From: Branchiostoma floridae
Taxonomy: Eukaryota; Chordata; Leptocardii; Amphioxiformes; Branchiostomatidae
Assembly (NCBI RefSeq): GCF_000003815.2
Contig: NC_049984.1
Span: forward strand, 5,410,491-5,474,490
Length of the DNA stretch: 64,000 nucleotides
Direction: 5' to 3'
Within the stretch, counting starts at the first letter, position 1. Each line of letters opens with the position of its first letter. The position numbers and the translations under genes are program-made. Below the pieces are notes generated by a model. It did not search any database and was not told where the DNA came from. It saw nothing but the letters and a program-made list of their open reading frames with translations. Positions 36,201 to 62,050 of this stretch are shown here, piece by piece.

Positions 36201-37282
36201 ACAGCGACAGAAATTGGCAACTGGTCTTGGCTGGGCTCTGATAAACATTGGTGTCCCACTCCGGGTCATTCTGATGTACATGAATTTTTTTTTTTTACAA
36301 AAAAAACAGAAAGAAATGTGGGTGTAGAATGTCAGCAAAGAGCTATGGCCATCACTAAGGGTGGGTACCGGTACAGAAAATTCAGGTCCAGGTCCGGTTC
36401 AGGTCCAGAGGATCAGGTCCAGGTCCGGACCTGAACCTGGACCTGATTCAGTCTGACTCATACCAATGGTCCATTTCACTACAAAGGAATCTGTTTGGTG
36501 GAGTATTAGACTCACACTGGCATTTTAAAATCCTACAACGCTAACTACACCTGTGCAATTGACTGTAAAACTTAGTAGAATTGACCATAAACTCTACTCT
36601 ACTTCACTATTATTATTTTCTTCCACTTGCAAGCGCCCAAACGTGTGAATGCCTGATCAAGTAATCTGATAATTTCCTAATAGGTCCAACATCCGGTCCA
36701 CCTAATTTTTTCAGGTCCGTTTTTTCTGGACCGGTCCAATGAGAAAAACTGGTTTTGTACCAGTATGCTGTACCGGTACCCAGCCCTAGCCGTCGCGCTT
36801 TGATACACCCGATCCCTTGATCTCGGACCTTGAACTTATTTTAGCTTTTAGAATGTCAGCAAAACCTACTTGCAAACCTTCCATCCTCTCTTTAGAGCTT
36901 GAATCTGAAATTCTGTGCCAAGTTAAAAATTTTGAGCGAGTTAAACAACGAAGCATATGCTAGTACTATGTATTAGTATGTTAATCCTACACACGTATTT
37001 GGGTGCACAAACGACAAATATGCATCCAATGTCTCCAGCCATGAAACACATGTTAACAAATAAAACCACAATTTACGATGCTTTCCAGACATGTAGCCGT
37101 AAATACGTGTTTAATGCCTGTGATTGATACCTCTAACCTTGACTTACAGGGGCAAGTATTACGTCCAGCTGCCGGTCCACTTCAAGCCAACCCAGCCCGG
37201 GAAGTACGAGTCCCTGTTGGTCATCCAGAGCGAACTGAAGGGGAGCTTCGCTGTCCAGCTGGTTGGAGAGGCCACAAGGTGA
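94..37282 (+). CDS. CEP192: CEP192 (SPD-2 family centrosomal protein), C-terminal 1,161 codons in 30 exons
   Basis: CEP192 is the centrosomal scaffold that recruits pericentriolar material and the PLK4 and Aurora A/PLK1 kinases for centriole duplication and spindle assembly. Thirty exons bounded by AG/GT join in matching phases into one open frame ending at TGA 37280-37282. The translation follows the recalled human C-terminal half in order: FAPTR, SGYGGT, NTGSRAAFVKA, GDEISR, VYDLPxRPND, HCLTVTPQHG, QIREDL, DIFRATY, QFWD and HFKP. This region is a string of beta-sandwich ASH/PapD-like domains used for centrosome targeting. The N-terminal kinase-binding half is not in the window, so the entry is partial at its 5' end. 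The largest introns are 16 (5.2 kb) and 29 (11.3 kb). No frameshift or internal stop was seen. Residue numbers in the exon entries count from the first full codon here. Identity is very secure; exact exon ends are inferred from splice consensus, phase and homology. Confidence 0.95.
210..477. repeat. Tandem partial duplication of CEP192 exon a 3' half and donor
   Basis: Bases 210-319 recur at 367-477 (offset 157) with only a few changes. The copy contains the last 25 codons of the exon and its GTAAAA donor but no acceptor. One exon difference would change Ile to Val. Confidence 0.9.
814..891 (+). CDS. CEP192: CEP192 exon b
   Basis: Residues 64-89, phase 0 to 0. It contains the hydrophobic/basic stretch FHLKQKTIIGPHTTEEIK, typical of the middle strands of an ASH domain. 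Acceptor TATCATTAG, donor AAG|GTGAGA. Confidence 0.85.
985..1335. mobile_element. Palindromic repeat with CTTGCC/GGCAAG segments
   Basis: AGTGTTGGACAAGTCCACTAG ... ACTTGCCTGATCAGGCAAGT ... GTACTTGCCCAGTAGGACAAG and GAAAACTTGTCTGGAACCCTG form a compact inverted-repeat element. A shorter relative occupies 2205-2295 with the same TTTTAGAAAACTTGT end. Confidence 0.6.
1580..1793. mobile_element. MITE family A copy 1
   Basis: A roughly 210 bp palindromic element with ends near CTGTAAATGCA and TGCATTTACAG and internal TTCGCGGTGGTTTTAAG/AAAACCGCGAAC segments. The right end abuts CEP192 exon c, about 37 bases from its acceptor. Confidence 0.85.
1830..1982 (+). CDS. CEP192: CEP192 exon c
   Basis: Residues 90-140, phase 0 to 0. 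It begins VLFTPHHPGVYVAQVQV, the 'F-x-P-x-x-x-G-x-Y/F' signature that closes an ASH domain. Acceptor TGTTTGCAG, donor CAG|GTGGGG. Confidence 0.9.
2435..2560 (+). CDS. CEP192: CEP192 exon d
   Basis: Residues 141-182, phase 0 to 0. It opens the next domain with LNFGDLPGSS followed by LPIKLTNHT, the start of an ASH beta-sandwich. Donor TCC|GTAAGT. Confidence 0.9.
3125..3229 (+). CDS. CEP192: CEP192 exon e
   Basis: Residues 183-217, phase 0 to 0, beginning TSAMWHCFSFKD. The frame is fixed by neighbouring exon phases. Acceptor ATCTTCTGCAG, donor CAG|GTAGGG. Confidence 0.85.
3524..3587 (+). CDS. CEP192: CEP192 exon f
   Basis: Residues 218-238 plus one base, phase 0 to 1. It encodes LPDPAIVMVQFRAPEKQ. 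Acceptor CATCCTCAG, donor CAG|GTATGG. Confidence 0.85.
4224..4363 (+). CDS. CEP192: CEP192 exon g
   Basis: Residues 239-285, phase 1 to 0. It carries YTGRVDIEMDTPG and ARVGVARIHTPRTLQ, which match the human pattern GRVDVEVDSP ... ARAGIARIHAPRDLQ closely. Confidence 0.93.
4780..4944 (+). CDS. CEP192: CEP192 exon h
   Basis: Residues 286-340, phase 0 to 0. It includes VPLKNAGNIPV and LTLHPGQQSE (human LPLKNAGNIEV, LLLKPGEEHE). The donor GAG|GTCATT is weak, and an open frame continues into the intron, but the next exon resumes exactly where the human protein does. Confidence 0.9.
5267..5487 (+). CDS. CEP192: CEP192 exon i
   Basis: Residues 341-413 plus two bases, phase 0 to 2. Landmarks are VTVKFAPK, GPQYEVLLRGE and VLSNKQFLSWGGVPMGRA, matching human GPQYEVVLKGE and ILSNKQFLAWGGVPLGRT. 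Donor GCT|GTAAGT. Confidence 0.95.
5851..5941 (+). CDS. CEP192: CEP192 exon j
   Basis: Residues 414-444, phase 2 to 0. LQQKLVLRNSS and the end DDGNGCFQ match human LQKLALRNNS and DQDCFQ. Acceptor TTGTTGGCAG, donor CAG|GTAAGC. Confidence 0.93.
6045..6200. repeat. Dispersed repeat G copy 1
   Basis: (GTTT)n then GAACCTTTATTTATTCATGAAAG and AAATCGGCCTGCAGGCCGCTTTTCATTGAGG. It recurs at 7.96 kb. Confidence 0.75.
6536..6700 (+). CDS. CEP192: CEP192 exon k
   Basis: Residues 445-499, phase 0 to 0. It contains VHLIFAPTRVATMQAKLVIK (human ISVLFAPTRLSCMLARLEIK), the closing strands of an ASH domain. Acceptor TTTCCCCCAG, donor ACT|GTAAGA. Confidence 0.95.
7174..7263 (+). CDS. CEP192: CEP192 exon l
   Basis: Residues 500-529, phase 0 to 0. 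IPLSGYGGTCNLTVEGL is nearly identical to the human SGYGGT linker that joins two ASH domains. Confidence 0.95.
7788..7875 (+). CDS. CEP192: CEP192 exon m
   Basis: Residues 530-558 plus one base, phase 0 to 1. The core IPVRNTGSRAAFVKAMCF matches human NTGSRAAFVKAVGF, one of the best conserved blocks in the family. Confidence 0.96.
7958..8110. repeat. Dispersed repeat G copy 2
   Basis: Same (GTTT)n/GAACCTTTATTTATTCATGAGG and AAATCGGCCAGCAGGCTGCTTTTCATTGAGG block as the 6.05 kb copy, in another CEP192 intron. Confidence 0.75.
8323..8405 (+). CDS. CEP192: CEP192 exon n
   Basis: Residues 559-586, phase 1 to 0. VRVEPSEFVLRERTTK matches human LRIFPDKFVLKERTQE. Acceptor ATCTCTTTAG, donor AAG|GTACAG. 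Confidence 0.93.
8567..8786 (-). mobile_element. tRNA-derived SINE-like element, minus strand
   Basis: The reverse strand starts GGGGCAACGTGGTCTTGTGGTTAG (A-box region) and has GGGTTCGAATCCC (B-box) about 35 bases on. The body is complementary to AGGTACTCATTTTTACCTGAG and TGCCTTTCCCAAGGG. It ends close before CEP192 exon o. Confidence 0.65.
8797..8918 (+). CDS. CEP192: CEP192 exon o
   Basis: Residues 587-626 plus two bases, phase 0 to 2. LGLFYGDEISRKQLRR matches human VYLFGGDEISRQQYRR. Confidence 0.94.
8983..9193. mobile_element. MITE family A copy 2
   Basis: Same ends (ACTGTGAATGCAT ... CTGCATTTACAGTA) and the same CGCGGTGGTTTTAAG core as the other family A copies, here in CEP192 intron 15. 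Confidence 0.85.
9393..9700 (+). mobile_element. tRNA-derived SINE-like element, copy 1
   Basis: An A-box-like TGGCCGTGTGGGTAG is followed about 110 bases later by a B-box GAGTTCGATCC, then a body GAGTATGGGAGTTAAATACACACC ... CCCCCTGCTGTAGGGGCTTGCAC. The spacing between the boxes is larger than in a tRNA, so this is not a functional tRNA gene. Confidence 0.65.
9751..9857 (+). CDS. CEP192: CEP192 exon p
   Basis: Residues 627-662 plus one base, phase 2 to 1. It starts RALRKGSSERG after the conserved RR and carries GVNFDMQYLGEE (human QNINFVEAFQDE). It is followed by the 5.2 kb intron 16. Confidence 0.9.
10000..10500. repeat. Two copies of a dispersed repeat in intron 16
   Basis: GATATTTGGTATGTGGGTAG ... 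GATTTGATTTTGGGCCCCCTAGCAGC ... TACTGCAGTGGAACTT (about 10005-10112) recurs as ATACTTGGTGTGTTGGTAG ... GAGATTTTGGGACCCCTAGCGGC ... TACTGCAGCAGAACTT (about 10387-10478). Confidence 0.75.
13888..14150. repeat. Two-copy tandem duplication in intron 16
   Basis: TAGTAACC...GTGCCGTTAAGACTGATAATATCAG...TCAGTCTACTGATATC...GTTAATTTTGA recurs about 155 bases later with an inserted GATATCAGAGAT. Confidence 0.7.
14814..15022. mobile_element. MITE family A copy 3 (reverse orientation)
   Basis: It begins TACTGTAATTGCAGAAATGTTCG and ends AATGCATTTACAGTA, the reverse of copies 1, 2 and 4. TA is present on both sides. It lies 60 bases before CEP192 exon q. Confidence 0.87.
15083..15278 (+). CDS. CEP192: CEP192 exon q
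   Basis: Residues 663-727 plus two bases, phase 1 to 2. VYDLPERPNDIRLFYSCMSRV matches human VYDLPQRPNDVQLFYGSMCKI. A polar Ser/Arg/Pro-rich linker (SSNTEERRRTSSVDSS) follows, as in the variable linker of vertebrate CEP192. Confidence 0.95.
16195..17050. repeat. Tandem array, about 160 bp unit, 5-6 degenerate copies
   Basis: The phrase TTTGGACCAAAATAATCACTGTCTTGATGTT...GTCC...GGAGGTAAAATTTGA...TTAGGAAACAT...CAATTTAGCA recurs near 16225, 16390, 16550, 16710, 16880 and 17005. It fills most of CEP192 intron 17. Confidence 0.8.
17153..17295 (+). CDS. CEP192: CEP192 exon r
   Basis: Residues 728-775 plus one base, phase 2 to 1. The first half is a lysine/glutamate-rich linker and the second half is WSVQPEQLMLLAPGTG (human WTVLPEHLILVAPSPC). 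Donor CTG|GTCAGT is non-consensus at +3. Confidence 0.92.
17324..17515. mobile_element. MITE family B (TACAGTCAAACCT ends) copy 1
   Basis: TACAGTCAGACATGTACAAG, then GGCCAATGTGACCAC and TTTGGTGGTCCCTTAGA, ending near TCTGACTTGAC. The end sequence resembles Tc1/pogo-class terminal repeats. It starts 28 bases after CEP192 exon r. Confidence 0.7.
17668..17725 (+). CDS. CEP192: CEP192 exon s
   Basis: Residues 776-794 plus two bases, phase 1 to 2. VQVLNHTDRVMR matches human FQIVNNSVRLLR. The donor GAG|GTCTGT is weak. Confidence 0.88.
18040..18105 (+). CDS. CEP192: CEP192 exon t
   Basis: Residues 795-816 plus two bases, phase 2 to 2. FELSWPGHCLTVTPQHGKV matches human FELCWPAHCLTVTPQHG almost exactly. 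Confidence 0.96.
18139..18900. repeat. Tandem array, about 140 bp unit, about 6 copies
   Basis: GTTGGTACTGTCTGAGGTGCTGAAAATTG...TGTGGTACATC...GTGTTTTGACTGTA...TTGGTACTGAAAC recurs through CEP192 intron 20. Confidence 0.85.
19228..19548. repeat. Tandem partial duplication of CEP192 exon u acceptor and 5' end
   Basis: About 115 bases at 19228-19341 recur at 19433-19548. Both contain the CTCCTCCAG acceptor and the codons for SHQVILVSPNPA. The upstream copy then diverges (GGATTTCCCGACC) and has no donor. Confidence 0.9.
19507..19612 (+). CDS. CEP192: CEP192 exon u
   Basis: Residues 817-852, phase 2 to 0. VILVSPNPATQ and FPWRGNLFIHCDNGQK match human ILVSPNSSL and FPWSGLIYIHCDDGQK. An N gap begins 10 bases after the exon end. 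A broken copy of the exon's 5' end lies 206 bases upstream. Confidence 0.94.
19622..19721. other. Assembly gap (100 N)
   Basis: A run of 100 N inside the intron just after CEP192 exon u. The coding frame is unaffected. Confidence 1.
20093..20300 (+). CDS. CEP192: CEP192 exon v
   Basis: Residues 853-921 plus one base, phase 0 to 1. It begins AVKIQIREDLALE (human VKVQIREDLTQVE). A variable polar linker follows, and it ends VLKFPPTRKGETA (human ITFPTTEPGETS). Confidence 0.94.
20378..20953. mobile_element. MITE family D (CAGGGTTTGAAAT ends)
   Basis: CAGGGTTTGAAATACACATACG ... ATGTATTTCGATCCCTG, about 575 bp, with TTGCAATTTGCACGTAA and its inverted form inside each end. The CAGGG-type ends suggest the hAT superfamily. 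Confidence 0.72.
21341..21420 (+). CDS. CEP192: CEP192 exon w
   Basis: Residues 922-948, phase 1 to 0. ESCLDFRNASEKEMKWELTS then FAPAYVK match human ESCLELENHGTTDVKWHLSS and LAPPYVK. Confidence 0.95.
21971..22066 (+). CDS. CEP192: CEP192 exon x
   Basis: Residues 949-980, phase 0 to 0. GVDDTNDIFRATYTVFRFA matches human GVDESGDVFRATYAAFRCS. Confidence 0.95.
22440..22499 (+). CDS. CEP192: CEP192 exon y
   Basis: Residues 981-1000, phase 0 to 0. IPVTFIPREIGSYSQFWDL matches human VSITFLPRGRGDYAQFWDV. Confidence 0.95.
23008..23070 (+). CDS. CEP192: CEP192 exon z
   Basis: Residues 1001-1021, phase 0 to 0. It ends HTTRIQLIAQ, the last strand of the domain (human KHTLRFQLSGQ). Confidence 0.9.
23545..23642 (+). 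CDS. CEP192: CEP192 exon aa (variable linker)
   Basis: Residues 1022-1053 plus two bases, phase 0 to 2. The polar linker starts GKECMDTTDDSLPRNQQRSR and corresponds to the poorly conserved linker before the last human domain. Support is splice phase and position rather than residue identity. Confidence 0.82.
24568..24638. repeat. 71-base AT-rich hairpin
   Basis: GAGCCACACAGTTACGTATTA pairs with TAATACGTAAATACTGTGTGGCTC with a 3-base offset, around an alternating AT centre. It could be a minimal MITE. Confidence 0.7.
24660..25100 (+). mobile_element. tRNA-headed SINE-like element
   Basis: An A-box-like GCTTGGCTCAGTACTGAG and B-box GAGTTCGAATC at about 24715-24755 are followed by a 330 bp body ending in AGGTACTCATTTTCACCTCAGTGAAG and GTGCCTTTTCCAAGGTCAC. 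These end blocks recur at 8.6 and 29.5 kb. Confidence 0.6.
25103..25138. repeat. (TTGA)n microsatellite
   Basis: About eight copies of TTGA with one or two substitutions, following a SINE-like element, perhaps its 3' tail. Confidence 0.85.
25309..25441 (+). CDS. CEP192: CEP192 exon ab
   Basis: Residues 1054-1098, phase 2 to 0. The segment from YVFPVTVVDQSS to VLIKNDSATPVS matches human YRFRPTSVGES to VNLRNNSFITHS and opens the C-terminal ASH domain. Confidence 0.92.
25742..25800 (+). CDS. CEP192: CEP192 exon ac
   Basis: Residues 1099-1117 plus two bases, phase 0 to 2. VKFVSPRSPFKVNHHKYTL matches human LKFLSPREPFYVKHSKYSL. It is followed by an 11.3 kb intron. Confidence 0.95.
26047..26165. 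mobile_element. MITE family B fragment
   Basis: It contains CTGCATAAGGACCACCTGGCCAATATGACC and TGGTCCCTTAGATTG, the 5' half of family B, without a recognisable right end. Confidence 0.6.
26630..27110. repeat. Two-copy tandem duplication, about 245 bp
   Basis: GTTCAGCCAAATGCACCACATTTGC ... GATAGGTTTGACATACAAACGTCC ... AAACCTTTGGTTA is repeated with small indels in CEP192 intron 29. Confidence 0.85.
27465..28340. repeat. Tandem array, about 165 bp unit, 6 copies with alternating types
   Basis: GTGATAATGTGGCAAATGTTAC begins units at about 27469, 27628, 27798, 27951, 28128 and 28300. Units alternate between ATCACGAGTTATCAGTTTGTTAGG and ATAAGTTATCAGCTTGTTAGATC, a dimeric higher-order pattern. 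Confidence 0.85.
29520..29670 (-). mobile_element. SINE-like element, minus strand, partial
   Basis: It contains GTCAGGTACCCATTGTTACTC, GTGCCTTTCCCAAGGGTACAAG and GGATTTGAACCCAGGATCTC, the same order as the 8.6 kb element. Confidence 0.6.
29715..29802 (+). mobile_element. tRNA-like head with strong T-arm
   Basis: CCCGGGTTCGATCCCCGGG forms a perfect T-arm with a B-box, but no matching acceptor stem, D-arm or anticodon arm could be paired. It is read as a tRNA-derived repeat, not a tRNA gene. Confidence 0.5.
30229..30716. mobile_element. MITE family E (TCACTACCAAAAATG ends)
   Basis: GTCACTACCAAAAATGCTTTTT on the left is complemented by AAAAAATCATTTTTGGTAGTGATAC on the right, 488 bp apart. The inside contains a direct duplication of TTCTTGTTTATCTTGTTTTG and several CAAGAAAA-rich arms. 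Confidence 0.75.
30840..31236. mobile_element. MITE family D-like, possibly two adjacent elements
   Basis: TGGCTCGAAATAGCACCTGCA at 30900 pairs with TGCAGG ... TATTTGGAGCCCTGGC ending near 31233. A second right end, AGTATTTCGAGCCCTG, lies just upstream (30869). CTGCACCAGTGCAGG and similar hairpins lie inside. Confidence 0.65.
31938..32100. mobile_element. MITE family D fragment
   Basis: CCAGGTCTCGAAATTCA followed by GGTGCACTGGTGCACCCAG and its inverted copy CTGGGTGCACC. The element end is at about 32092 (CAGAGCCCTG). Confidence 0.6.
32341..32960. repeat. Tandem array, about 170 bp unit, 4 copies
   Basis: Units start GAATGCTGATGCA at 32341, 32508, about 32680 and 32850. The middle copies differ by only a few bases, so the expansion is recent. 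The last copy is degenerate. Confidence 0.92.
33593..33852. mobile_element. MITE family B copy 2
   Basis: TACAGTCAAATGT ... GGCCACCTCTACATAACGACC ... CATGTTGACTGTA. It shares the CCACCTGGCCA and TGGTGGTC blocks with the other copies. A local duplication of the first part makes it longer. Confidence 0.72.
34920..35375. repeat. Two-copy tandem duplication, about 230 bp
   Basis: AAAGTAATTACATCA...CTGTACATTATTCTTT...AGACTGAGTTGAACCAGAAAG...CAATTGTAGTTC is repeated. Confidence 0.8.
35745..35885 (+). mobile_element. SINE-like element, 3' body only
   Basis: GAGAGTATGGGAGTTGAATACACC ... GACTAGCCCCCTGCTGTAG and GCACAAAGTTGTGTGG match the body of the 9.4 kb element. The tRNA-like head is missing. Confidence 0.65.
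36356..36788. mobile_element. MITE family F copy 1
   Basis: TAAGGGTGGGTACCGGTACAG ... GTACCGGTACCCAGCCCTA, 433 bp, with dense AGGTCCAGGTCC/GGACCTGGACCT inverted segments. Confidence 0.78.
37150..37282 (+). CDS. CEP192: CEP192 terminal exon with TGA stop
   Basis: Residues 1118-1161, entered in phase 2. YYVQLPVHFKPTQPGKYESL and AVQLVGEATR match human HYINMPVQFKPKSAGKFEAL and AIRLIGEALGKN, so the stop lies within a few residues of the human end. The last bases, ACAAG|GTGACC, are also a good donor, so the exon could alternatively splice onward. The same bases begin a minisatellite. Confidence 0.93.
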
Positions 37283-38335
37283 CCACACAGCAACAGCCTC
37301 AACAGAGTCTTCCAGTGTTAGTATGTAACCCCTAGCCTTACATCATTGTATCAACCAGAGGCCACAAGGTGACCGCACAACAACAGCCTCAACAGAGTAT
37401 TCCAGTGTTAGCCCCATAGCCTTACACCGTTACATCAACTGGTAGGATAGGCCACAAGGTGACCGCACAGCCTCAACAGAGTCTTCCAGTGTTAGTACCT
37501 AACCCCTAGCCTTACATCATTGTATCAACCAGTGGCCACAAGGTGACCGCACAGCCTCAACCGAGTCTTCCAGTGTTAGTACCTAACCCCTAGCCTTACA
37601 TCATTGTATCAACCAGTGGCCACAAGGTGACCGCACAGCAACAGGCTCAACAGAGTCTTCCAGTTTAGTACCTAACCCCTAGCCTTACGTCATTGTATCA
37701 ATCAGTGGCCACAAGGTGAACAGACAGTAACAGCCTCAACAGAGTCTTCCAGTGTTAGTACCTAACCCCATATAGCCTTACATGTACATCATTGTAGAGT
37801 GCATTGTATCAACCAGTGGCCACAAGGTGACCGCACAGCAACAGCCTCAACAGTCTTCTAGTGTTAGTACGTAACCCCTAGCCTTACATCATTACATCAG
37901 TTGGTAGGAGAGGCCACAAGGTGATCACAGCAACAAGCACAGCTTCTGACAAATTCCTCCAGTGTTAGTACCATAGCCAAAAGTGGTTAATTTTGCCTTA
38001 CATGAACTAGTAGGAGAAATTTGAACTTTATTTAAGTACCACTAGTACTACTTCGCTGGCAACAGCCTGAATTGTGTTGGCGAGTACACATTACAGCAGA
38101 GTATTAGACAACAAGGTGACCGCACAGCAACAAGCACAGCTCCTGACAAATTCCTCCATTGTTAGTATCTAACCCTATAGCCTTACATCAGCCGGTGGGA
38201 GAAACCACAAGGTGACTGCTAAACAACAGGCACAGCTCCCTAAGATTCCTCCAATGTTTAAGTACACAAACCCATAACCTTCCATCACTACATGAACTGT
38301 TGAGAGAGGCCACAGGGTTGACCACACAATTGCTT
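37268..38335. repeat. Minisatellite of about 90 bp units starting at the CEP192 stop codon
   Basis: The phrase GCCACAAGGTGACCGCACAG followed by CAACAGAGTCTTCCAGTGTTAG and CCCTAGCCTTACATCA recurs roughly 10-11 times, increasingly degenerate to the right. The first unit contains the last codons and stop of CEP192. Confidence 0.9.
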
Positions 38336-42180: not shown

Positions 42181-42534
42181 CCAAAATCATATCCAGTTGA
42201 ATTAGTAACTTTTATTTAGCGTATCTGAATGTCTAACCTTCATTGACGTAAGATTACTGGATAAATAATTGTGAAACCATAACCAGTTCTCAAAATATAT
42301 AGCTTTCTTCTTTTGTGTGTGTGATGTGTCAGCCACTTACATTGTCCAATATTGGATATGTCATGGAATTTAACCCCAGAGTTTACATGATTTGCAAACC
42401 AGACATGTTGAAATCCCAAATGTAACAGTTGGATTAGCTCACGCCTCTAGAATCAATAAGGTTTGTACAATACACCTCTGGCTTTGGCACAACTTCCGAC
42501 CCAAGTACTTGGTTAACCGTGCAGTAGTCAAAGA

Positions 42535-43020
42535 AAGTAGATAAAACGAATCCTAATTTTTCTTCATCAAGAGGTAGACAAAATGATGACTTGTAACATC
42601 ACTACTGTAACTAAAATTCTCTCAGCCTCAGCTCTGAAATCCAGCTAAGCAAAATGCCAACTGTACCAGGCAGAGTTTAATAGTCAAAGAAATTAGATAG
42701 AATTAATTCTGATTTTTCTTCAACAAGAAGTAGACAAAATGACGACTTGTAACATCACTACTGTAAAATTCTGTCAGACTCAGCTCTAAAAACGAGCTCA
42801 GCTAAATGCCAAGCTGTACTCGGTTACAGTGATAGTACAATAGTAAAAAAAATCAGATAAAAACAAATTCTAATTTTTGCTCATCAAGATGTAGACAAAA
42901 TGACGACTTGTATGATATTATATAACATCACTACTGTAAAAAAAACCATCAACCTCAGCTCTAGAAACCCAGCTCAGCAAAATGCCAAGTGTACCAGGCA
43001 GACTTTAATTAGGAAACAAA
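42535..43020. repeat. Tandem array, about 160 bp unit, 3 copies
   Basis: GTAGACAAAATGACGACTTGTAACATCACTACTGTAA occurs at about 42572, 42732 and 42892, each followed by CTCAGCTCT...AGCTCAGC...AATGCCAA. Confidence 0.88.
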
Positions 43021-48208: not shown

Positions 48209-48463
48209 TTAGTCCACCCCTTCGTCGGGCCACTTGAGCTGGCGGATGAGCCCTCCCTTTCCCCGCGCGTAGCCGCCGTACCTCTCCAGGTTGTACAGTT
48301 TGTCGCCCGACCGCCAGCCGATGTAGCCGGCCGAAGACCGGGGCAGCGGCGGCGACTTGTCTACCTTGATGTATTTCTCGATGGGAGTGATAGGGGGCAG
48401 GCGTAACGTCTCCGGCATCTCCAGTTTTGGGCGGTCCAGAGGGCGAATCTCGTCCTTCACGAG
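48209..48463 (-). CDS. CIMIP1: CIMIP1 exon 3 (terminal)
   Basis: It starts LVKDEIRPLD after a TGTTTTCAG acceptor and runs 84 codons to the stop. It holds ITPIEKYIKVDKSPPLP, GYIGWRS and the C-terminal QLKWPDEGVD. This is the only one of nine exon-3-like acceptors in the area that continues into the conserved C-terminal half. Confidence 0.95.
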   Translation of the reverse strand, partial: LVKDEIRPLDRPKLEMPETLRLPPITPIEKYIKVDKSPPLPRSSAGYIGWRSGDKLYNLERYGGYARGKGGLIRQLKWPDEGVD

Positions 48464-51400
48464 CTGAAAACACAAAAGGTTTACATTAAACAAAAACACC
48501 ACTGCAATTCTCGATGGGAGTGATAGGGGGCAGGCGTAACGTCTCTGGCATCTCCAGCTTTGGGTGATCCAGAGGGCGAATCTCGTCCTTCACGAGCTGA
48601 AAACACAAAAGTATACATTAAACAAAAACGCCACTGCAACTCTCGATGGGAGTGATAAGGGGCAGGCGTAATATTAATGTCTCTGGCATCTCCAGCTTTG
48701 GGCGATCCAGAGGGCGAATCTCGTCCTTCACGAGCTGAAAACACAAAAGGTATACGTTAAACAAAAACGCCACTGCAATTCTCAATGTGAGTGATAGGGG
48801 GCAGGCGTAATGTTTCCGGCATCTCAAGCTTCGGGCGGTCCAAAGGGAAAATTTCGTCCTTCACGAGCTGGAAAACACAAAAGGTATACTTTAAACAAAA
48901 ACACCACTGCAATTCTTGATGGGAGTGATAGGGGACAGGCGTAACGTCTCTGGCATCTGAAGCTTTGTTGGTCCAGAGGGCGAATCTCGTCCTTCACGAG
49001 CTGAAAAACACAAAATGTATGCATTAAACAAAAATGCCACTGCAATTCTCAATGTGAGTGATAGGGGGCAGGCGTAACGTTTCCGGCATCTCCAGTTTCG
49101 GATGCTCCCGAGGGCGAATCTCGTCCTTCACGAGCTGGAAAACACAAAAGGTATACGTTAAACAAAAACACCACTGCAATTCTCAATGGGAGTGATAGGT
49201 GGCAGGCGTAACGTCTCTGGCATCTCCAGCCTCGGGCGGTCCAGAGGGCGAATCTCGTCCTTCACGAGCTGAAAACACAAAAGTATACATTAAACAAAAA
49301 CACCACTGTAATTCTCGATGGGAGTGATAGGGGGCAGGCGTAACGTCTCCGGCATCTCCAGTTTTGGGCGGTCCAGAGGGCGAATCTCGTCCTTCACGAG
49401 CTGGAAACACAAAAGGTTTACATTAAACAAAAATGCCACTGCAATTCTCAATGGGAGTGATAGGGGGCAGGCGTAACATCTCTGGCATCTCCAGCTTGGG
49501 ATGGTCTTGAGGGCGAATCTCGACCTGTAAAAACCCTATCATCCGACTTTTATTAAAATCTTTGACAGTGGAGCACTCTAAGCATGTTTCAATCCTTCTT
49601 TTTGCTCAAGGTAACAAATCCTTCCCTTTGAAAAAAAGATAGTATAAAATCCTGCCAGAAGTCCAAAAACTTAAGTATTTCCATCCGAGTATAAGAGCAA
49701 AATATGACAATATGTTGACAACAAAGAAAGCTGGAAACAAATGCACCAATAGATAGCTACATTTGTATAATGTAAAACCTGAGTCAATGTAAACAAATCA
49801 ATTGATGCTAGCTGATGAAATATACTTAACAAATTGTCTACTATTTATTTTTTTATTTGTTGCTTTGAAATTAAGTGCAGTTCAGATGCAATCCACAGAA
49901 TCCAGATGTATCGGCCTGACCCTAATTCCTCATCAGAATAACTAGATGCACCTAAAAGTCATCCGAGAAAGTGTCTCCTCATTACCGCCAATGTCAAGAA
50001 GGATAGATACGATCAGAATACTAATTAGAGTATAATATCCCCCTGCTGCGTTGACTGAGGGCATTAGGAACCATGCTGTTTGTTATGCACAATGTGTCTC
50101 CACAGTTCCCAGAGTTGGCTTGTTTCCTAAACCTGCTGCCTTTCCTGGGAATTGGTAGCTGCGTAACGTCGTCGGCAGGCATTCTTTAGTCGTAGGAGTC
50201 AAGAAACTATTCTGGCACGCTGCATCGTACAGTTTTGTCACATACACGGGTACAATCTTTTAATAGATAAGTCAGACGATTGGATTACTAGGTATATCTT
50301 GTTTTTTCCTTGACAAGAGCGAGAAGATGACTTGGATGAAGATATAACTTTGACACATCAAATTTTACATTTTTGTCACATCCACAGGCACAATCTTTTA
50401 ATAGATAAGTCAGACAATTAAATTGGTACGTCTGGTTTTATCCTCGACAAGAGCGAAAGGATGACTTGGGTAAATTAATGTCAGCAGCAGGCGTACTTCA
50501 AATTCGCAGGTGAAGAAACAACTTTGACACTTTAAATCGTACATTTCTGTCACATACATGTACATAGGTACAATCTTATAATAGATAAGTCAGACGATTA
50601 AATTGGTGCGTCTGGTTTTATTCCTTGATGGGAGTGTGAGTCTGTGAGATGGAGAAAATAGATATCAGCGGAAGGTGAACTCAATTTGCAAGTTACCGGT
50701 ATAGTTAGTACGCCTCCAAAATCTTACATTTATGTCACATACAGTACCTAGGCACAATCTCTAGGCACAAACCTTCAATAGATTAGTCACTGATGATTGA
50801 ATTACTTCCTTTCCTTTCGCTCAAGACGGGAGTTAGAGGGTGACTTGCAGAAGGTAGATACCTGTGGTTAACCGTTTATAGGGTGTGCTTAATTTGCAAG
50901 TGAAGATACAATTTTGGCATGCTAAATGTTTAATTTCTGTCACAATCCTTTGACTCATATAAGGCAGACAATAAGTTATAACTATAGATAACTTGTGTTT
51001 CTTTTAGTCAAGGAACAAAAGGGTTATTGAATTGAAGATGTCTGTGCTAGGTGTGCTTTATTTGGAAGTGATATAAGTTTGGTACACTACATAATGTTAC
51101 ATATCACACACAATCCTTCAATAGATAACTCACACTATTGAGTCAAATCAAACATATTGTTTTTCTACATATGAGAATGGGCGGTTGACTTGAAGTTGAT
51201 AAACACCAGTGTTATGTAGTAGTATACTAGTATAGGAGTCAGACATTTCTTCATTTTGTAAGTGAGAATAAAACTTTGTAAATTGTAGCGACCCAATCTT
51301 ACATTTCTGTCACATACACAAGAAGTCTCGTAATCCACAGGACAGACAATTGAATGGCATATTTTCCTACCCGAGGACCGGGCGGGCGGTTTGCAGGCCC

Positions 51401-54400: not shown

Positions 54401-57400
54401 ATGTGTGGTTCAGGTCCAGAGGATCAGGTCCCAGTCCAGACCTGAACCTGGACCTAATTGTTCGAGAAAAATTGTAAATGGGCGATACTCAAAACAATAT
54501 TCCATTTCGAAACTCCCACTGGTGCTTTAAGATCCTATCTTCACGTAAATAATGCTAAGTTAATGCTAATGCTGGGTAGACGCTTTTGGGATGTACATAT
54601 GAGCTAATGTAACAGTTTTTGGATCACAATAATGTGCTTAATGTTCGAGGCTACTGTAATGTAAATGTGACGTATGACTGCTTTACTTTGTATCATATGG
54701 GCCGTATATCATCAGCATGATGTAAATATTCAGGTCCTTTTGTACTGATTAAAAAAAAAAAAAAAAAGTTTGACTGTGGAAACTTGATAAAAATTACTTT
54801 TAACTCTACTCTACTTTGCTCTTGTTATTTTTTTGACTGGCAAGCCCTAAAAGTAAAACGTGTGACGTCGCCTTACGATATAATCATTTTCTAGTCAGTC
54901 CAAGATCCGGTCTACTGATTTTTTTCAGATCCGTTTTTTTTTACCGGCCTATTAAACACAAAGAAAAAATGGTTTTGTATAGGTAGGTACACACCCCTAA
55001 TTAAAAACAGTGTCCCTCAACTCATAACTGTGTATCTGATATTCAAATTTGCTCTACCAAGCATTCAACATGTATGTACAGCCAAACCTTTACAAGTGAC
55101 CACCTCTGCCTATGGCCAACTGGCCAATGTGACCACATTTTGGTGGTCCCAAACATAATTTTTCCCACTGACCCAAGTACATGTATTAAGAACCATGTCT
55201 ATAGACTAGTGACCACCTGCTCAAATTTTATCAGTCACCTGACTGGTCTTCTTGGGCAGGTTAGACTGTATACGGCTACAACAGCTGTTTCATTTTACAA
55301 TTCCATCTTTGGAACGATTATCCGAGTTTAAGCCATTGCTATAACACAGTATCATGGTGTTCTTAATCTGATTGGTCGACTGGACAGGTCCATACTAGTA
55401 GCATTGTGGGAAGGCAGGCTTTAAGTGTCTGTGTCAAGCAGAACAATTAAATCGTGTAAATAAAGGCACTAAATTTGATTCTGAAATTCATTGAATACCA
55501 TATCATCTATGTTTTACATCACTTCGTTTGGACAATTCATTTGCTAACTAAAACTAAAAGTTTTAGCACAACAGCATTTCTTGAATGATTATTGAGAAAG
55601 AACAGATGTGGTTTTTAATAGAATAGGACTTTGACCATAAAGATATCCTGCACCAAAGACCTTGGCATTGCTGTTGGCTGTAATTTCTGAACTTCCAAAA
55701 TCAACATTTAGTCAGAGCTTTTGTGGATTAACAGGTTATCATATATATAGCCCTGGAGCTCTTTAACTGTATCAAGCAGCTGCGTTTTGTATCAGCTCTG
55801 TATATACCACGAAGCATGTCATATATATGGAGGCCAAACTCGAACTTTATAATTAGACAAGAGGCTCTCGGCGTTGAGCATACCAAGGGCAATGTTTACA
55901 ACATCTGGTAGTAAGGGCATTGTAAATCGCTTCATTACAGTGTGTTCTGTTTCACTTCAACTTTCAAGTTCAATTGAAAAAAAAAAGTGAATGCATTCTC
56001 ATCAGATCTTTATAATGTTGCATAGTTCCAGTTTGTTCGTTTATTTTCAAACGCCTGGGTGGCCTATTCAGTTTAGACAAACTGATTTTCAATAGGTCCC
56101 AGTATTTACATACAAGGAAATAAAAGCATATTACATAGAAAATAGATAGACATACACTTCGGAACATATTATAAAAACAAATGAAACATGACAGACGGAA
56201 GACAAATCAAAATCAAAACGTCACCATCTTCTTGTGGTATCCAAAGATCCTTTCCATTCGCAAGGATACCAGGCCCCAGCCCGATCTGATCTCAAATCCG
56301 GCTGGGGTCTGGTATCCAGGCTACTTTTCCATAGGCACCAGGTTCCCAGATGACCGCCTCCCTGCAGCCTATTGAAACCGTGACCAACATGAATTTGGTG
56401 CAAAGGACTGCCTCAGTTGGGAGAGGGTTAAGTAAAGAGAGTAGGACTTCATGTATAAAAGCCACAAAAGAATGGACCAAAGATATAACCTCAATGAATA
56501 GTCAAATCCTCCAGATGATGTGACTGGCTGGCTGTCCAAACTATTCCTGGCCAACAGAGGAGGGCTGTCCAAACATGATTGTACAAAATGGGGGTATTTG
56601 AAAATTAGAAAAAAAGTCTAGATGTAATAGAACATGATAAAAAGAAGAAAATTTACTGAATTAAATTATTTACAAATAATTTTGATGTATAAATAACTTT
56701 TGATGGTTAAAAATGGCATTAAAAGATCAGCAAGTCAATGTTTAAATCAGCAAGTCAATGTTTAATTTCTGTATGACCCCTGCTTGTACTTGTGGTACTG
56801 CCCGCTTCTACTTTTCACTTTCTGGGGTCTGGTTTTCATTACGATAGGGGGTCAGATGTCAACAGGCCTGAGCTGTACCATACATGTGTTGTTACCTCTG
56901 ACAGAAACTGGAAGCTAAGGTCTGTGGCAGTTTGTTGGAGAGAACATAGAACTCCAAGAGATGTGCAACAATTTCTATGGTTTAACATCTGGTAGGTTTT
57001 GATTGATTCCTAGAAAAAGTAACTTAGTTTTGGGACAGATAGGAAATCGGAATAACCTGGAATTACTGGAATGATTACCGTGGCCGATATCAACAATGTG
57101 CAACACACTTACTTTTCTGCTCAAGACACTTACTTTTCTGCTCAAGACACTTACTTTTCTGCTCAAGACACTTACTTTTCTGCTCAACACACTTACTTTT
57201 CTGCTCAACACACTTACTTTTTTCTGCTGGAGACACTTACTCTTCTGCGCTGCACTTACTCTTCTGCGCTGCACTTACTTACTTTTCTGCGCGAGCCACT
57301 TACTCTTCTGCGCTGCACTTACTTACTTTACCTGTGGTGCGCACCCTTCCCTTTATCAATGGATGGTCCCTGAATCAGGCCAAAGGTAAAAAAGACCGCA

Positions 57401-60400
57401 TAAAATGTAGGAGGATTGACCGCATGTCAATCCTAAATTATCCTCCTTCGGATGACCTATGAAATGACTACCTTGGCGCGTTTTTTGGATTCAACTTAAT
57501 TTTTTTGTGTCTTTAGTATAGCATTTTGACAATGCAGATCGATAACGACAAGTCTCGATTTGATCATCACAACAACGCGTTTTGTTGCCATCACAACGTA
57601 TTGTCAGAAAACAAATTCTGCAGCACGTGTCTCTGTCGCGCAGCTTTAAACTTTTATTTACCAGGGTTTACCTAAACCAGGCAGAGGCTTTTAACTCCTC
57701 TGTAGATAGGAGTAAGAAGGCAGGTAGGCCTTGGTAGCTCCTCTGTCCAGAATTCGGCGCCTGTTTAGTAATAAATAGCCAAGTTGCCGCACGTAATGTT
57801 TGGTGGGAGCACTGAATTTTACTACCCGGATCCGGACTAACTTTGGACGAAGTGGACAGATCAAGACAATGTTAGTAAATATTAGCAAATCAGATGTGTG
57901 GAAGTGGGTAAGTTGTGTGTTGTCAAGAAAAATGACAGATCCTACCTGTGCCACCCCACCCCCCCCTCCTGGGCTAATTATGCATGTTTGGGGTGAAACT
58001 CAGTGTGTTTACTTTGCAACAGAAACTTTTATTTTAATACTTTGAGACTTTGAGACAAACCACACAACAACACAGTGGAAAGTCACCCTTAACCATGATG
58101 TGTGAAGTTGGCCCAAATGTAGCACTATGACTTCATTCTGATTAAACACTCTGCAGCTTTTGGTTAGAAANNNNNNNNNNNNNNNNNNNNNNNNNNNNNN
58201 NNNNNNNNNNNNNNNNNNNNNNNNNNNNNNNNNNNNNNNNNNNNNNNNNNNNNNNNNNNNNNNNNNNNNNCAGGAGGTTGAAAGAATGGAAAACCTACTA
58301 TTTTTACCAGATTTATACCAAAAGCTACAGATTGTTTAATCATAATGAAGTCATAATGCTACATTTGGGCCAACTTCACACATCATGGTTAAGGGTGACT
58401 TTCCACTGTGTTGTTGTGTTGTTTGTCTCAAAGTCTCAAGGTAAACACACTGAGTTTCACCCCAAACATGCATAATTAGCCCAGGAGGGGGGGGGGGTGG
58501 CACGGGTAGGATCTGTCATTTTTCTTGACAACACACAACTTATCCCACTTCCACACATCTGATTTGCTAATATTTACTAACATTGTCTTGATCTGTCCAC
58601 TTCGTCCAAAGTTAGTCCGGATCCGGGTAGTGAAATTCAGTGCTCCCACCAAAACATTACGTGCGGCAACTTGGCTATTTATTACTAAACAGACGCCAAA
58701 TTCTGGACAGAGGAGCTACCAAGGCCTACCTGCCTTCTTACTCCTATCTACAGAGGAGTTAAGAGCCTCTGCCTGGTTTAGGTAAACCCTGGTAAATAAA
58801 AGTTTAAAGCTGCGCGACAGAAACACGTGCTGCAGACCAGAATTTGTTTTCTGACAATACGTTGTGATGGCAACAAAACGCGATGTTGTGATGATCAAAT
58901 CGAGACTTGTCGTTATCGATCTGCATTGTCAAAATGCTATACTAAAGACACAAAAAATTAAGTTGAATCCAAAAAACGCGCCAAGGTAGAGGTCATTTCA
59001 TTGGGTCATCCGAAGGAGGATAATTTAGGATTGACATGCGGTCAATCCTACATTTTATGCGGTCTTTTTGACCTTTGGCCTGATTCAGGGACCATCCATT
59101 GATAAAGGGAGGGGTGCGCACCACAGGAAAAGTAAGTAAGTGCAGCGCAGAAGAGTAAGTGGCTCGCGCAGAAAAGTAAGTAAGTGCAGCGCAGAAGAGT
59201 AAGTGGCTCGCGCAGAAAAGTAAGTGTCTCCAGCAGAAAAAAGTAAGTGTGTTGAGCAGAAAAGTAAGTGTGTTGAGCAGAAAAGTAAGTGTCTTGAGCA
59301 GAAAAGTAAGTGTCTTGAGCAGAAAAGTAAGTGTCTTGAGCAGAAAAGTAAGTGTGTTGCACATTGTTGATATCGGCCACGGTAAATGATGATAATGATG
59401 ATGGAAGACTCACTGTTACTAAGTTTTAGGACATAGAAGAATCCTAAAACAGTAAGCTAAGAATCACCCTGCCTGGCAAGTCATCCTGGGAGGAGCAAGA
59501 GGCAAACACCTGGTCTGGTCACTTGGGCAGGTAGGCATGAGCTCCAAGCAGATGTTGGGGTGAAAAATTGTAATGTTTTCTGACTGGCTGGGGAGGGAAG
59601 GCTGACAAACAGCTAATCTCCAAGGAGCTTTTATCAGCCTGATAAAAGCTCCTTGTAATCTCCAAGCAGATTTTTCGGTGGAAAAAAAATTTTTTTGAGG
59701 GGGGGGGGAGACAGTATCCAAGGGTCAATAGTCCGAGAACCAGGAGCTTGCATCATTTTGCCTTTGAGTTTGAACTTCTGCTTGGAGAGTGTGAGACAAG
59801 AAATTAGAACCACATTTGTCTAGGGTAAAATACTGTCAGAAAACAAAGCTGATATACAAAGAAATTTATCTATTTGTTTAGTGAAAATGTCACAATTTTC
59901 CATCCCAACATCTGCTTTGAGATTACTAGAATGTATGTTGCCAAGGTTGAAGTGTATTGATCAAAATTTCCCAGCAAATCCCTGCTGGGAGATTATATTC
60001 ATTATACCAAGGATGATACAAAGGTGAAGCCATACTCTGTATGAATATTGTATGCCAGGGCTAATTAGAACAACCTTGCTAATACACACCCCTTGCATGC
60101 CTTGTCTGACATCCAATACATATGCAAATTTACCAGACACTGTAGTCACTGTAAGGTGGTAAAACCTGCTTATGATAATCACATAATTGTTATTCAAAGC
60201 TGTCTGAGAGGTGGATAATGTGGTTAATCTACAGGATTACTAGAATGGCTTCTATTCCCTAATGTAGTATACTTTGTTAATCTCCAAGCAGATCCTATGG
60301 TGGCATATAAAGATAGTATCAAAAGCTGGCAAAGGTAGCCGACTTTGGTACACAATGAACACTCCGAGGCCAGCTACATAATACATTCCTTTGCCAGCTT

Positions 60401-62050
60401 TTGATACTATCTTTGATATGCCACAATAGGATCTGCCTGGAGATTATACTTTGTATCCCAGATCCCAGTGGAATCTTACAATTTGTTAGGGACTCCATGT
60501 GAAAAGCTGAATGTTCCAACACACCAAGGACACCCTCCAAGCAGAGGTTAGGCCTTGCTTGTTTTGGACATCTCTTTAACTTTCTGTTGGCCTTTCTATT
60601 TTGTCAGTTTTTCCAAGATAAAAACCTCCTTAGTTTTTCCATGTATTTGCCCACTTATGAGTGAATGTAAAAAGTACTGATGAAATGGAAAGACAAAAAG
60701 GCATCAAAAGATGCCCCAAACAAACCTAACATCTGTTTGAAGAGTAGAGATCCCATGAGGAACCCCACTTCTTCCTATGGGAATTGTGATGATCAATCAA
60801 CCATTCATTGGAAAAAACACACCAACCTTGTGGCAACTTAACTTTGCTTGTCACAACCAAGCTTTTAAATCTTATGAAATCTCAGAAAGTGTTTGGGCTG
60901 ATTGCAATTGTAAAGGGCCTGAATTAATGCTACCAATACACACAATTCCTCTTGCTTCTAAATCCAATACACATGCAGTTGTGCCAACACATTCAACAAA
61001 TTGAACAATAACAACTCTGCAATACATCTAACGGAAGAAAATACTTTGACATCTATAATCTATGTAGAATGATTCTGATGAGTGTTATCTTCCAAATGAT
61101 GTAGCGTTAGTTTAGTCAAGCAAGACATCACAACAACAACAACAAACATTCAATGTAAACAATCCCGTTGTGGTTGGTTGCTAGCGACTGACTTTGTATG
61201 CAACCACCAAAAGAAAGTATTTGCCAAGGCATCACAGCAACAATACCTACAGAAATGGATTGTCATAGTCATTTCATCTTTACTTTATATTATTTGTAAT
61301 CCTCCATGATTTCTATAGTATAACTAGCCATCCCTTTGTGAACAACAGAAAGCAAATAAACCCATTCATAGTATTTGCTTAATGCATTGATTTGTATGTT
61401 AACATTTGTTCTATGATAAGCTTGTTCTGGCATATTTTGAGTCGCATAAGAAAATACACTTTTATCAATTGCCGTATTATTATTCGTATGTCGAAGACGT
61501 AAACCAAATGCAGCTGGTTGTTGCTAGGCAACAGCTTGGGGTCACTTCTGCCCCCCTCCCCACAACCTTTGATAAACTCGGATGTCAAAAACAAACGAAC
61601 AAACTTACATCTTTATAATCCGTAGCCATGAAGCCCCAGTCCATGGGCCATTTCTTGTACGCCCTGTGCTCTTGGGCTATGCGTGCTTTCCTGGTGTAAA
61701 ACAAGAAATAAAACAGTGAGTGGCCATGTTTACATTATGTATTGTGTCAAAATTGATACATACACACCCGTAAGCCTCTGAATTAAAATACTCTGATTTC
61801 TCACTGCAATTTGTACTGGAAGCGAATTTTAGATGCCCCGAAGTAGCGACGTTGCCAGGATTCTAATGTGGATGAATATTGGCAGACATTGGGGCCGTTT
61901 CAGTCGACCTTTGCAGGGGACATGTGGGGCTAGCGCTGGGTCCGCGCCAGAAACTACCTACCATATCTGATCGAGCGCCCAAATATTGCAGGCGGCTGCC
62001 CTGTTGCTCGGCGCCCCGCCACCCTTCACCGCTGCCGCCGCCGTGGCCAT
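48209..62050 (-). CDS. CIMIP1: CIMIP1 (C20orf85 homologue), ciliary microtubule inner protein, 141 aa, three exons
   Basis: CIMIP1 (C20orf85, LLC1) is a small protein of motile cilia, reported inside axonemal doublet microtubules. Three exons on the minus strand (62050-61962, 61690-61609, 48463-48209) join in matching phases into 141 codons, close to the human 137. Matching blocks are DQIWKARIAQEHRAYKKWP, MDWGFMATDYKD, PKLEMPETLRLPPITPIEKY, SSAGYIGWRS and KWPDEGVD. The recalled human equivalents are DEIWKYRLKAE, NWGFLTTPFEE, PKIELPERFRIRPVTPVEKY, QGFIGWRS and CWPKQGVH. The gene is convergent with CEP192. RFX-type X-box motifs flank its first exons, as expected for a ciliary gene. Intron 2 is about 13 kb and ends in a tandem array of partial exon-3 copies. 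Identity is secure. Confidence 0.94.
48377..49525 (-). repeat. Tandem array of partial CIMIP1 exon-3 copies (about 133 bp unit, 9 units)
   Basis: Each unit holds about 47 bases of intron end, the TTTTCAG acceptor and the first 29 codons of exon 3. Acceptor-adjacent exon bases are at 48463 (the functional exon), 48596, 48734, 48867, 49000, 49134, 49268, 49400 and 49524. In the extra units the exon part runs directly into intron sequence after ITPIE, giving a short tail CSGVFV and a stop. The outermost unit has diverged (VEIRPQDHPKLEMPE). Confidence 0.93.
50235..51365. repeat. Degenerate tandem array, about 175 bp unit, about 7 copies
   Basis: CTGTCACATACA...GGTACAATCTTTTAATAGATAAGTCAGACGATT...TTCCTTGACAAGAGCGAGA...ATGACTTGG recurs with spacing of 140-200 bases inside CIMIP1 intron 2. 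Confidence 0.78.
52605..53010. repeat. Tandem array, about 175 bp unit, 3 copies
   Basis: GGTTATTCAGGAGTTC...GTAGTGTGGTTTTCACAACTCTACAGAGAAG...TGTTGACAGGAGAGTTG recurs three times. Confidence 0.83.
53885..54022. mobile_element. MITE family C copy 2
   Basis: TACTCTCCAAGCAGAGGTTGG ... CCAACCTCTGCTTGGAGAGTA, 138 bp, near-perfect arms including GACCTTTTCCTTAT and its complement. Confidence 0.87.
54366..55000. mobile_element. MITE family F copy 2
   Basis: CTAGGGGTGGGTAGTGGTACAGAAAATTCA ... TAGGTACACACCCCTAA, about 635 bp. It shares CAGGTCCAGAGGATCAGGTCC with copy 1 but carries extra sequence in the middle. Confidence 0.72.
55077..55270. mobile_element. MITE family B copy 3
   Basis: TACAGCCAAACCTTTACAAG ... 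TTGGGCAGGTTAGACTGTA, 194 bp, with TA at both ends. The terminal inverted repeat is about 14 bases. Confidence 0.78.
56264..56317. repeat. Hairpin repeat
   Basis: GGATACCAGGCCCCAGCC is complemented by GGCTGGGGTCTGGTATCC (17 of 18) across an 18-base spacer. A further GGTATCC just upstream (56237) suggests a nested element. Confidence 0.7.
57103..57330. repeat. 21-bp tandem repeats in the left arm of the inverted repeat
   Basis: About six copies of ACTTACTTTTCTGCTCAAGAC are followed by degenerate CTTACTCTTCTGCGCTGCA units. The array keeps a frame open (TYFSAQD repeated) but shows no sign of being a gene. The right arm carries the complement at 59125-59350 with a different unit count. Confidence 0.85.
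58171..58270. other. Assembly gap (100 N)
   Basis: A run of 100 N at the centre of the inverted repeat. The round number suggests a gap of unknown size. Confidence 1.
59535..60000. mobile_element. Nested or broken MITE family C copies
   Basis: CTCCAAGCAGATGTTGGGGTG (59540), a perfect 32-base palindrome AAGGAGCTTTTATCAGCC/GGCTGATAAAAGCTCCTT (about 59618-59656), CTCCAAGCAGATTTTTCGGTGG (59661) and CTGCTTGGAGAG (59779) mark several overlapping copies. Their individual ends cannot be resolved by eye. Confidence 0.65.
60278..60446. mobile_element. MITE family C copy 3
   Basis: TAATCTCCAAGCAGATCCTATGG ... CCACAATAGGATCTGCCTGGAGATTA, 169 bp. The arms extend inward through GATAGTATCAAAAGCTGGCAAAGG and its complement. 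Confidence 0.87.
61520..61532. promoter_or_regulatory. RFX X-box-like site in CIMIP1 intron 2
   Basis: GTTGCTAGGCAAC (reverse GTTGCCTAGCAAC) fits the RFX pattern GTNRCC-N(0-3)-RGYAAC with a one-base spacer. It lies 77 bases downstream of CIMIP1 exon 2. A related GTTGCTAGCGAC is at 61177-61188 and a forkhead-type GTAAACA at 61155-61161. Confidence 0.5.
61609..61690 (-). CDS. CIMIP1: CIMIP1 exon 2
   Basis: Acceptor TTTTACACCAG, phase 2 to 0, donor GAT|GTAAGT. It encodes KARIAQEHRAYKKWP and MDWGFMATDYKD, holding the family's W-P-x-x-W-G-F block. Confidence 0.94.
61962..62050 (-). CDS. CIMIP1: CIMIP1 exon 1
   Basis: ATG at 62050 gives an Ala/Gly-rich start MATAAAAVKGGGAPSNRAA and then CNIWALDQI, leaving in phase 2 at ATATG|GTAGGT. 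DQIW aligns with human DEIW. A competing frame through the same bases has no homology. Confidence 0.88.

Follow-up and report, generated by a model that had tools for sequence, protein, structure and literature searches.

How is one 3′ splice site chosen when complete and near-identical copies of it stand in series ahead of it? The question is raised by a 64-kb window, the whole stretch of Branchiostoma floridae DNA analysed here (64,000 nucleotides), where a tandem array repeats the start of a terminal coding exon together with the end of the intron before it. The gene lies on the minus strand and reads as three coding exons with GT/AG splice sites, which encode a 141-aa protein:

61962–62050, minus strand: CIMIP1 exon 1, coding part, from the ATG to ..CAGATATG before the donor gtaggt (frame and splice sites read; PF14945 match)
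61609–61690, minus strand: CIMIP1 exon 2, ending ..ATAAAGAT before the donor gtaagt; intron phase 0
48209–48463, minus strand: CIMIP1 exon 3, coding part, the real and 3′-most copy (unit 9), with the stop codon TAA at 48211–48209

The protein matched the Pfam family PF14945 (LLC1) over residues 20–140 of 141 (E = 3.4e-35; 121.7 bits against a curated cut-off of 27.3; profile positions 6–119 of 119). A PDB sequence search matched C20orf85/CIMIP1 chains, three distinct sequences in all, the best being 8otz_P, a C20orf85 homologue (E = 1.1e-31). Because of the PF14945 match and the matches to chains of solved structures, we assign the gene as CIMIP1/C20orf85, the name it had been given in a preliminary description of this DNA. 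In motile cilia, CIMIP1 is one of the microtubule inner proteins, according to the accessible text of PMC10973386.

The array that precedes exon 3 is made up as follows:

48375–49526, minus strand: mirage-type tandem array, 133-bp unit, 8.6 copies (TRF score 1754)
49401–49524, minus strand: partial unit 1, without the repeated acceptor and the first three codons; an unrelated in-frame AG lies in front
49269–49400, minus strand: decoy unit 2, with an exonic part of 89 nt that matches the real exon throughout (0/89 differences)
49135–49268, minus strand: decoy unit 3, from unit and frame reading
49001–49134, minus strand: decoy unit 4, from unit and frame reading
48868–49000, minus strand: decoy unit 5, with a 1-nt deletion and frameshift
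48735–48867, minus strand: decoy unit 6, from unit and frame reading
48597–48734, minus strand: decoy unit 7, with 6 extra nt, in frame
48464–48596, minus strand: decoy unit 8, an exonic copy followed by the tail in which the real exon has its acceptor

A full unit holds about 44 nt of the 3′ end of the intron (a TTTAAT/C-like branch-point motif, a U-rich tract and CAG) followed by 89 nt of exon (indels aside), which reach GAGAA within codon 30. Past the repeated part the real exon continues as GAGAAATACATCAAGG, while the decoys pass straight into the intron-derived sequence with which the following unit begins. Copies showed 88% matches (TRF). The exon starts of the seven true decoys are at 49400, 49268, 49134, 49000, 48867, 48734 and 48596, and that of the real exon is at 48463. 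The preliminary description had put the distance from exon 2 (61690–61609) to the first decoy at about 12 kb, in agreement with the 12.1 kb found here. It had also counted nine copies of a unit made of the acceptor and 29 codons: the exonic part does occur nine times, but the repeated acceptor is present in eight copies and absent from 49524. Its statement that the 3′-most copy alone (exon start 48463) goes on into the conserved C-terminal half was borne out.

The tandem array is real. That a single unit was wrongly repeated during assembly is extremely improbable: even though gaps exist in the assembly, as 100-N runs at 19622 and 58171, and a comparable array in the globin gene BflGb6 looks aberrantly assembled in an earlier, then-current genome draft (accessible text of PMC3087553), this array contains no N, and its units differ at up to 16 of 80 exonic positions. 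Because most units bear private changes or indels, the worry about an assembly artefact is largely removed; the exact copy number is less certain. When the last unit was used as a query against one assembly (513,431,437 bases in 431 contigs), at least nine matches were found, every one inside the array. Older remnants of the unit were sought by local alignment to the 876 nt upstream of the array and none was found (score 22, equalled in 83 of 500 shuffles).

The decoys retain their splice signals. With a human acceptor matrix, the seven decoys scored 8.2–8.9, the real acceptor 8.6 and the acceptor of exon 2 7.9. For the AG in front of unit 1 the score was 5.4, a value attained by 48 of the 714 AGs of intron 2. 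A YTNAY branch-point match starts 25–27 nt upstream of the real acceptor and of six of the seven decoy acceptors. Thus, the duplicated acceptor is present in seven of the eight decoy units, at scores close to that of the real site, and nothing in the core acceptor signal sets the last site apart. Where eight near-identical acceptors had been reported, seven are complete and score like the real site; the eighth, at 49524, is an unrelated AG.

The proteins predicted if units 1 to 8 were spliced are 90, 93, 93, 93, 115, 93, 95 and 93 aa long (full length, 141 aa). Seven of the eight decoy frames run into (C/Y)SG(V/I)FV and close at an in-frame TAA that belongs to the putative branch-point motif of the unit that follows. 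The common ending CSG(V/I)FV-stop ascribed earlier to the extra units therefore stands, in this slightly wider form, for all but unit 5, whose 1-nt deletion gives a different tail and the 115-aa product. We also considered that the copies might be internal tandem exons joined to one another, and rejected this, as the unit has no good donor by eye (an AAT/GTATAC-like sequence only, after the stop).

We compared the units over codons 4–29 with the majority sequence as reference. There were 29 distinct changes, 18 private to one unit and 11 shared. Private changes fell on codon positions 1, 2 and 3 in the ratio 6/7/5, with 5 silent, and shared ones in the ratio 0/2/9, with 9 silent; the silent share expected of random changes is 26–31%. 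Across all units the contrast between shared and private changes gave p = 0.0078 (Fisher). Removing unit 5 gave 8/2 versus 6/9 (silent/other, shared versus private; p = 0.099), and removing both units 1 and 5 gave 7/2 versus 5/6 (p = 0.197). As significance is lost once unit 5 is left out, the contrast is suggestive only: changes private to one copy look neutral, and shared ones are mostly silent. CpG hypermutability was considered as the source of the silent shared changes and is insufficient by itself, since only 4 of 14 CpG transitions in these codons would be silent. Variable sites among the copies number 27 of 80 in the exonic part versus 11 of 44 intronic columns, so that the exonic part is no more conserved.

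These data bear on the possibility that splicing to the decoys is frequent enough to matter and makes short CIMIP1 isoforms, mostly of 90–95 aa. Their acceptors equal the real one in score, seven of eight are in frame with an early stop, and the gene as read has no downstream intron; all decoys would share the terminal poly(A) site, which would place their stops in the last exon, out of reach of exon-junction-dependent decay. However, the private changes look unconstrained, unit 5 is frameshifted, and the short products would lose the EKYIKV..IGWRSG stretch, which is shared with mammals. Published amphioxus mirages, in addition, do not seem to interfere with regular splicing, according to the authors of PMC3087553, and are said in the accessible text of PMC3087553 and PMC3902484 not to yield aberrant mRNAs. 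We therefore consider such isoforms improbable, and a selected family of them, one of two alternatives offered in the preliminary description, is unsupported by private changes that show no protein-level constraint and by the frameshift in unit 5. The other alternative, a preference for the last site, is better supported, though only by analogy with the published mirages.

Our preferred reading, which we hold to be very probable, is that of a splicing-silent mirage minisatellite that exchanges sequence with the functional exon, the silence being what we infer for splicing. A stretch of the terminal coding exon and its intron, beginning some 44 nt before the 3′ splice site and ending at codon 29, would have been duplicated in tandem, carrying with it a putative branch point, the pyrimidine tract, the AG and the exon start. 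The array would then have expanded and been shuffled through unequal exchange or conversion. The transcript would be spliced mainly to the last acceptor, because this one alone directly borders the terminal exon with its poly(A) site, as terminal exon definition would require, and the decoys would remain silent within the intron. From every acceptor but the last, at least one more copy of the 3′ splice site would be met before the poly(A) signal. The other copies would be disfavoured because each then meets another 3′ splice site and no good donor. Since the decoys have no good donor (by eye), splicing to any one of them would leave every later copy in the mRNA, as far as the normal poly(A) site. 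In terminal exon definition, as set out in the accessible text of PMC3737548, the acceptor pairs with the poly(A) signal through contacts involving U2AF65, CFIm, poly(A) polymerase and SF3b-CPSF.

Two points count against this account of acceptor choice. The model needs a putative poly(A) site, and there is no AATAAA within 1.8 kb downstream of the stop codon (the first is at 46389); near the stop the candidates are all variant hexamers (AATACA at 48133 and at 47830, among others), and an AATAAA lies at 49554, just upstream of the array. Kinetic, first-come splicing, moreover, would favour the upstream decoys. A different role for the array would be that of a regulatory brake, in which splicing of the last intron, and hence CIMIP1 output, is slowed or gated by numerous U2AF-binding sites. 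Seven near-identical complete 3′ splice sites in series before the real one would suit such a role, but similar arrays in unrelated genes (below) would point to a general repeat process, and the RNA fold of one unit plus its flanking tail was no stabler than shuffles (z −0.46); we judge a brake very improbable. The same absence of a fold signal led us to reject RNA structure as a means of hiding the decoys.

How the functional exon relates to the array is suggested by comparing individual units. Unit 2 is seven units away from the real exon and identical to it over the 89 exonic nucleotides, whereas the adjoining unit 8 differs at 4 of 89. In the genome search, over a 144-nt neighbourhood, unit 2 was 97% like the real copy and the adjacent unit 94%. 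We read the difference between units 2 and 8 as a sign of exchange between the functional exon and the array, with the decoys drifting independently; the evidence of turnover by exchange between units comes from one pair, unit 2 and the real exon. In the preferred reading the real exon would join this exchange, and its first 29 codons would be subject in part to concerted evolution with the array. We tentatively suggest, at somewhat less than even chances, a stronger form in which the functional exon is itself an array member with variation passing both ways. The 29 codons of this conserved protein would then be overwritten time and again by sequence from a minisatellite that is otherwise free of selection, and would be copied back into it, with selection acting as a filter only at the functional position.

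Other repeats were observed in the window. A foldback-like element lies in intron 2 of CIMIP1 (57075–59385); its inverted arms are about 1.1 kb long, and a 100-N gap falls close to the middle of the element. The arms are mostly 93–100% complementary in their longest segments and contain repeats of about 21 bp. On the CIMIP1 transcript strand, one arm carries 11 GTAAGT in a row of repeats; apart from these and the real donor, the 13-kb intron has no GTAAGT. On the plus strand, 37150–37940 holds the last-domain exon of a CEP192 homologue (Cep192_D8, E = 8.9e-14; the name rests on Pfam), and a PDB search with this exon gave no significant match (best E = 0.56). Its end, GEATR followed by TGA at 37280–37282, is overlapped by a tandem array (37267–37783) with a unit of about 84 bp, which repeats the coding end and the stop codon, or a 5′ splice site if the GT is a donor. 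Further long-period arrays (141–323 bp) lie at 18254–18776, 26628–27095, 27461–28266, 32340–32962 and 42525–43009; of nine ORFs tried in and around these arrays, none matched a Pfam family above its curated cut-off. Rfam gave no match at the gathering threshold within the window.

Further arrays over exon starts were found in the B. floridae assembly, where globin and ADH genes were picked since mirages are known there, and kinesins were picked with no such prior:

globin (locus L017, one of nine globin matches): 158-bp array, 4.2 copies, over an exon start
ADH (locus L019, among 23 ADH_N matches, Pfam): 59-bp array, 6.9 copies, over an exon start
ADH family (locus L036, array also in L024, among the same 23 Pfam matches), G000:C2 about 5232190–5232745: 143-bp 3′ splice-site array, 3.8 copies
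kinesin (locus L067), G000:C2 about 31967600–31968130: 151-bp units repeating the start of the P-loop exon (GQTGAGKT)

All four, like that of CIMIP1, involve the 3′ splice site and have the real copy last. The globin and ADH arrays resemble published mirages. The gene at L036/L024 looks sorbitol-dehydrogenase-like by eye. The kinesin locus has three acceptors, two decoys and the real one, which scored 11.6–11.9. It was the one locus with an array over an exon start among 30 fetched of 134 kinesin matches; arrays at other kinesin loci (L050, L061 and L068) made no contact with the matched exons. The accessible text of the mirage papers (PMC3087553, PMC3902484) does not mention the kinesin array. 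To judge by this case and the second ADH-family case, mirages would not be a rarity in this genome.

Mirages are natural experiments, in that complete and near-identical 3′ splice sites are set in series before the real one. CIMIP1 offers a clean test of acceptor choice, with seven equal decoys, a terminal coding exon and readable frames. If the last site is used almost always, then terminal-exon definition decides the choice, and not the strength or order of the sites.

Amphioxus mirages were described as minisatellite-like duplications of intron/exon boundaries in Adh3, the globins BflGb6 and BflGb9, and troponin C (accessible text of PMC3087553 and PMC3902484; the latter for Adh and TnC), and they include 5′ splice sites. 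The preliminary description did not link the array to this named phenomenon. The CIMIP1 array is not mentioned in the literature found, which included work on amphioxus and on CIMIP1/C20orf85 and was largely short of full texts, and a mirage at CIMIP1 is new as far as that search reaches. In BflGb6, as in CIMIP1, the 3′ end of an intron and the 5′ part of an exon are repeated in many units with splice signals; the BflGb6 units are of 150–160 bp with 81–100% identity, and RT-PCR suggests that splicing is undisturbed (PMC3087553, accessible text). BflGb6 differs in having 6 or 3 units, depending on haplotype, at globin exon 2, whereas CIMIP1 has nine copies at the terminal coding exon of a cilia gene. 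The Adh3 mirage (Canestro et al. 2002, NAR, as cited in the accessible text of PMC3087553 and PMC3902484) also has tandem repeats across an intron/exon boundary and is length-unstable, but its units are short (10–72 bp), and somatic instability is reported for Adh3. Lancelet PGBD5 has imperfect repeats of 60 and 108 bp that lie at splice sites or extend across them, and these involve both 5′ and 3′ sites, in contrast to the 3′ site only in CIMIP1 (PMC3902484, accessible text). Intron gain by tandem duplication over AG/GT (PMC3087553, accessible text) likewise carries splice signals to new places; the CIMIP1 unit, unlike these, has no good donor by eye, so that no new intron would readily form. 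The CIMIP1 array, which spans an exon/intron boundary as mirages do, is another amphioxus mirage and not a new kind of system.
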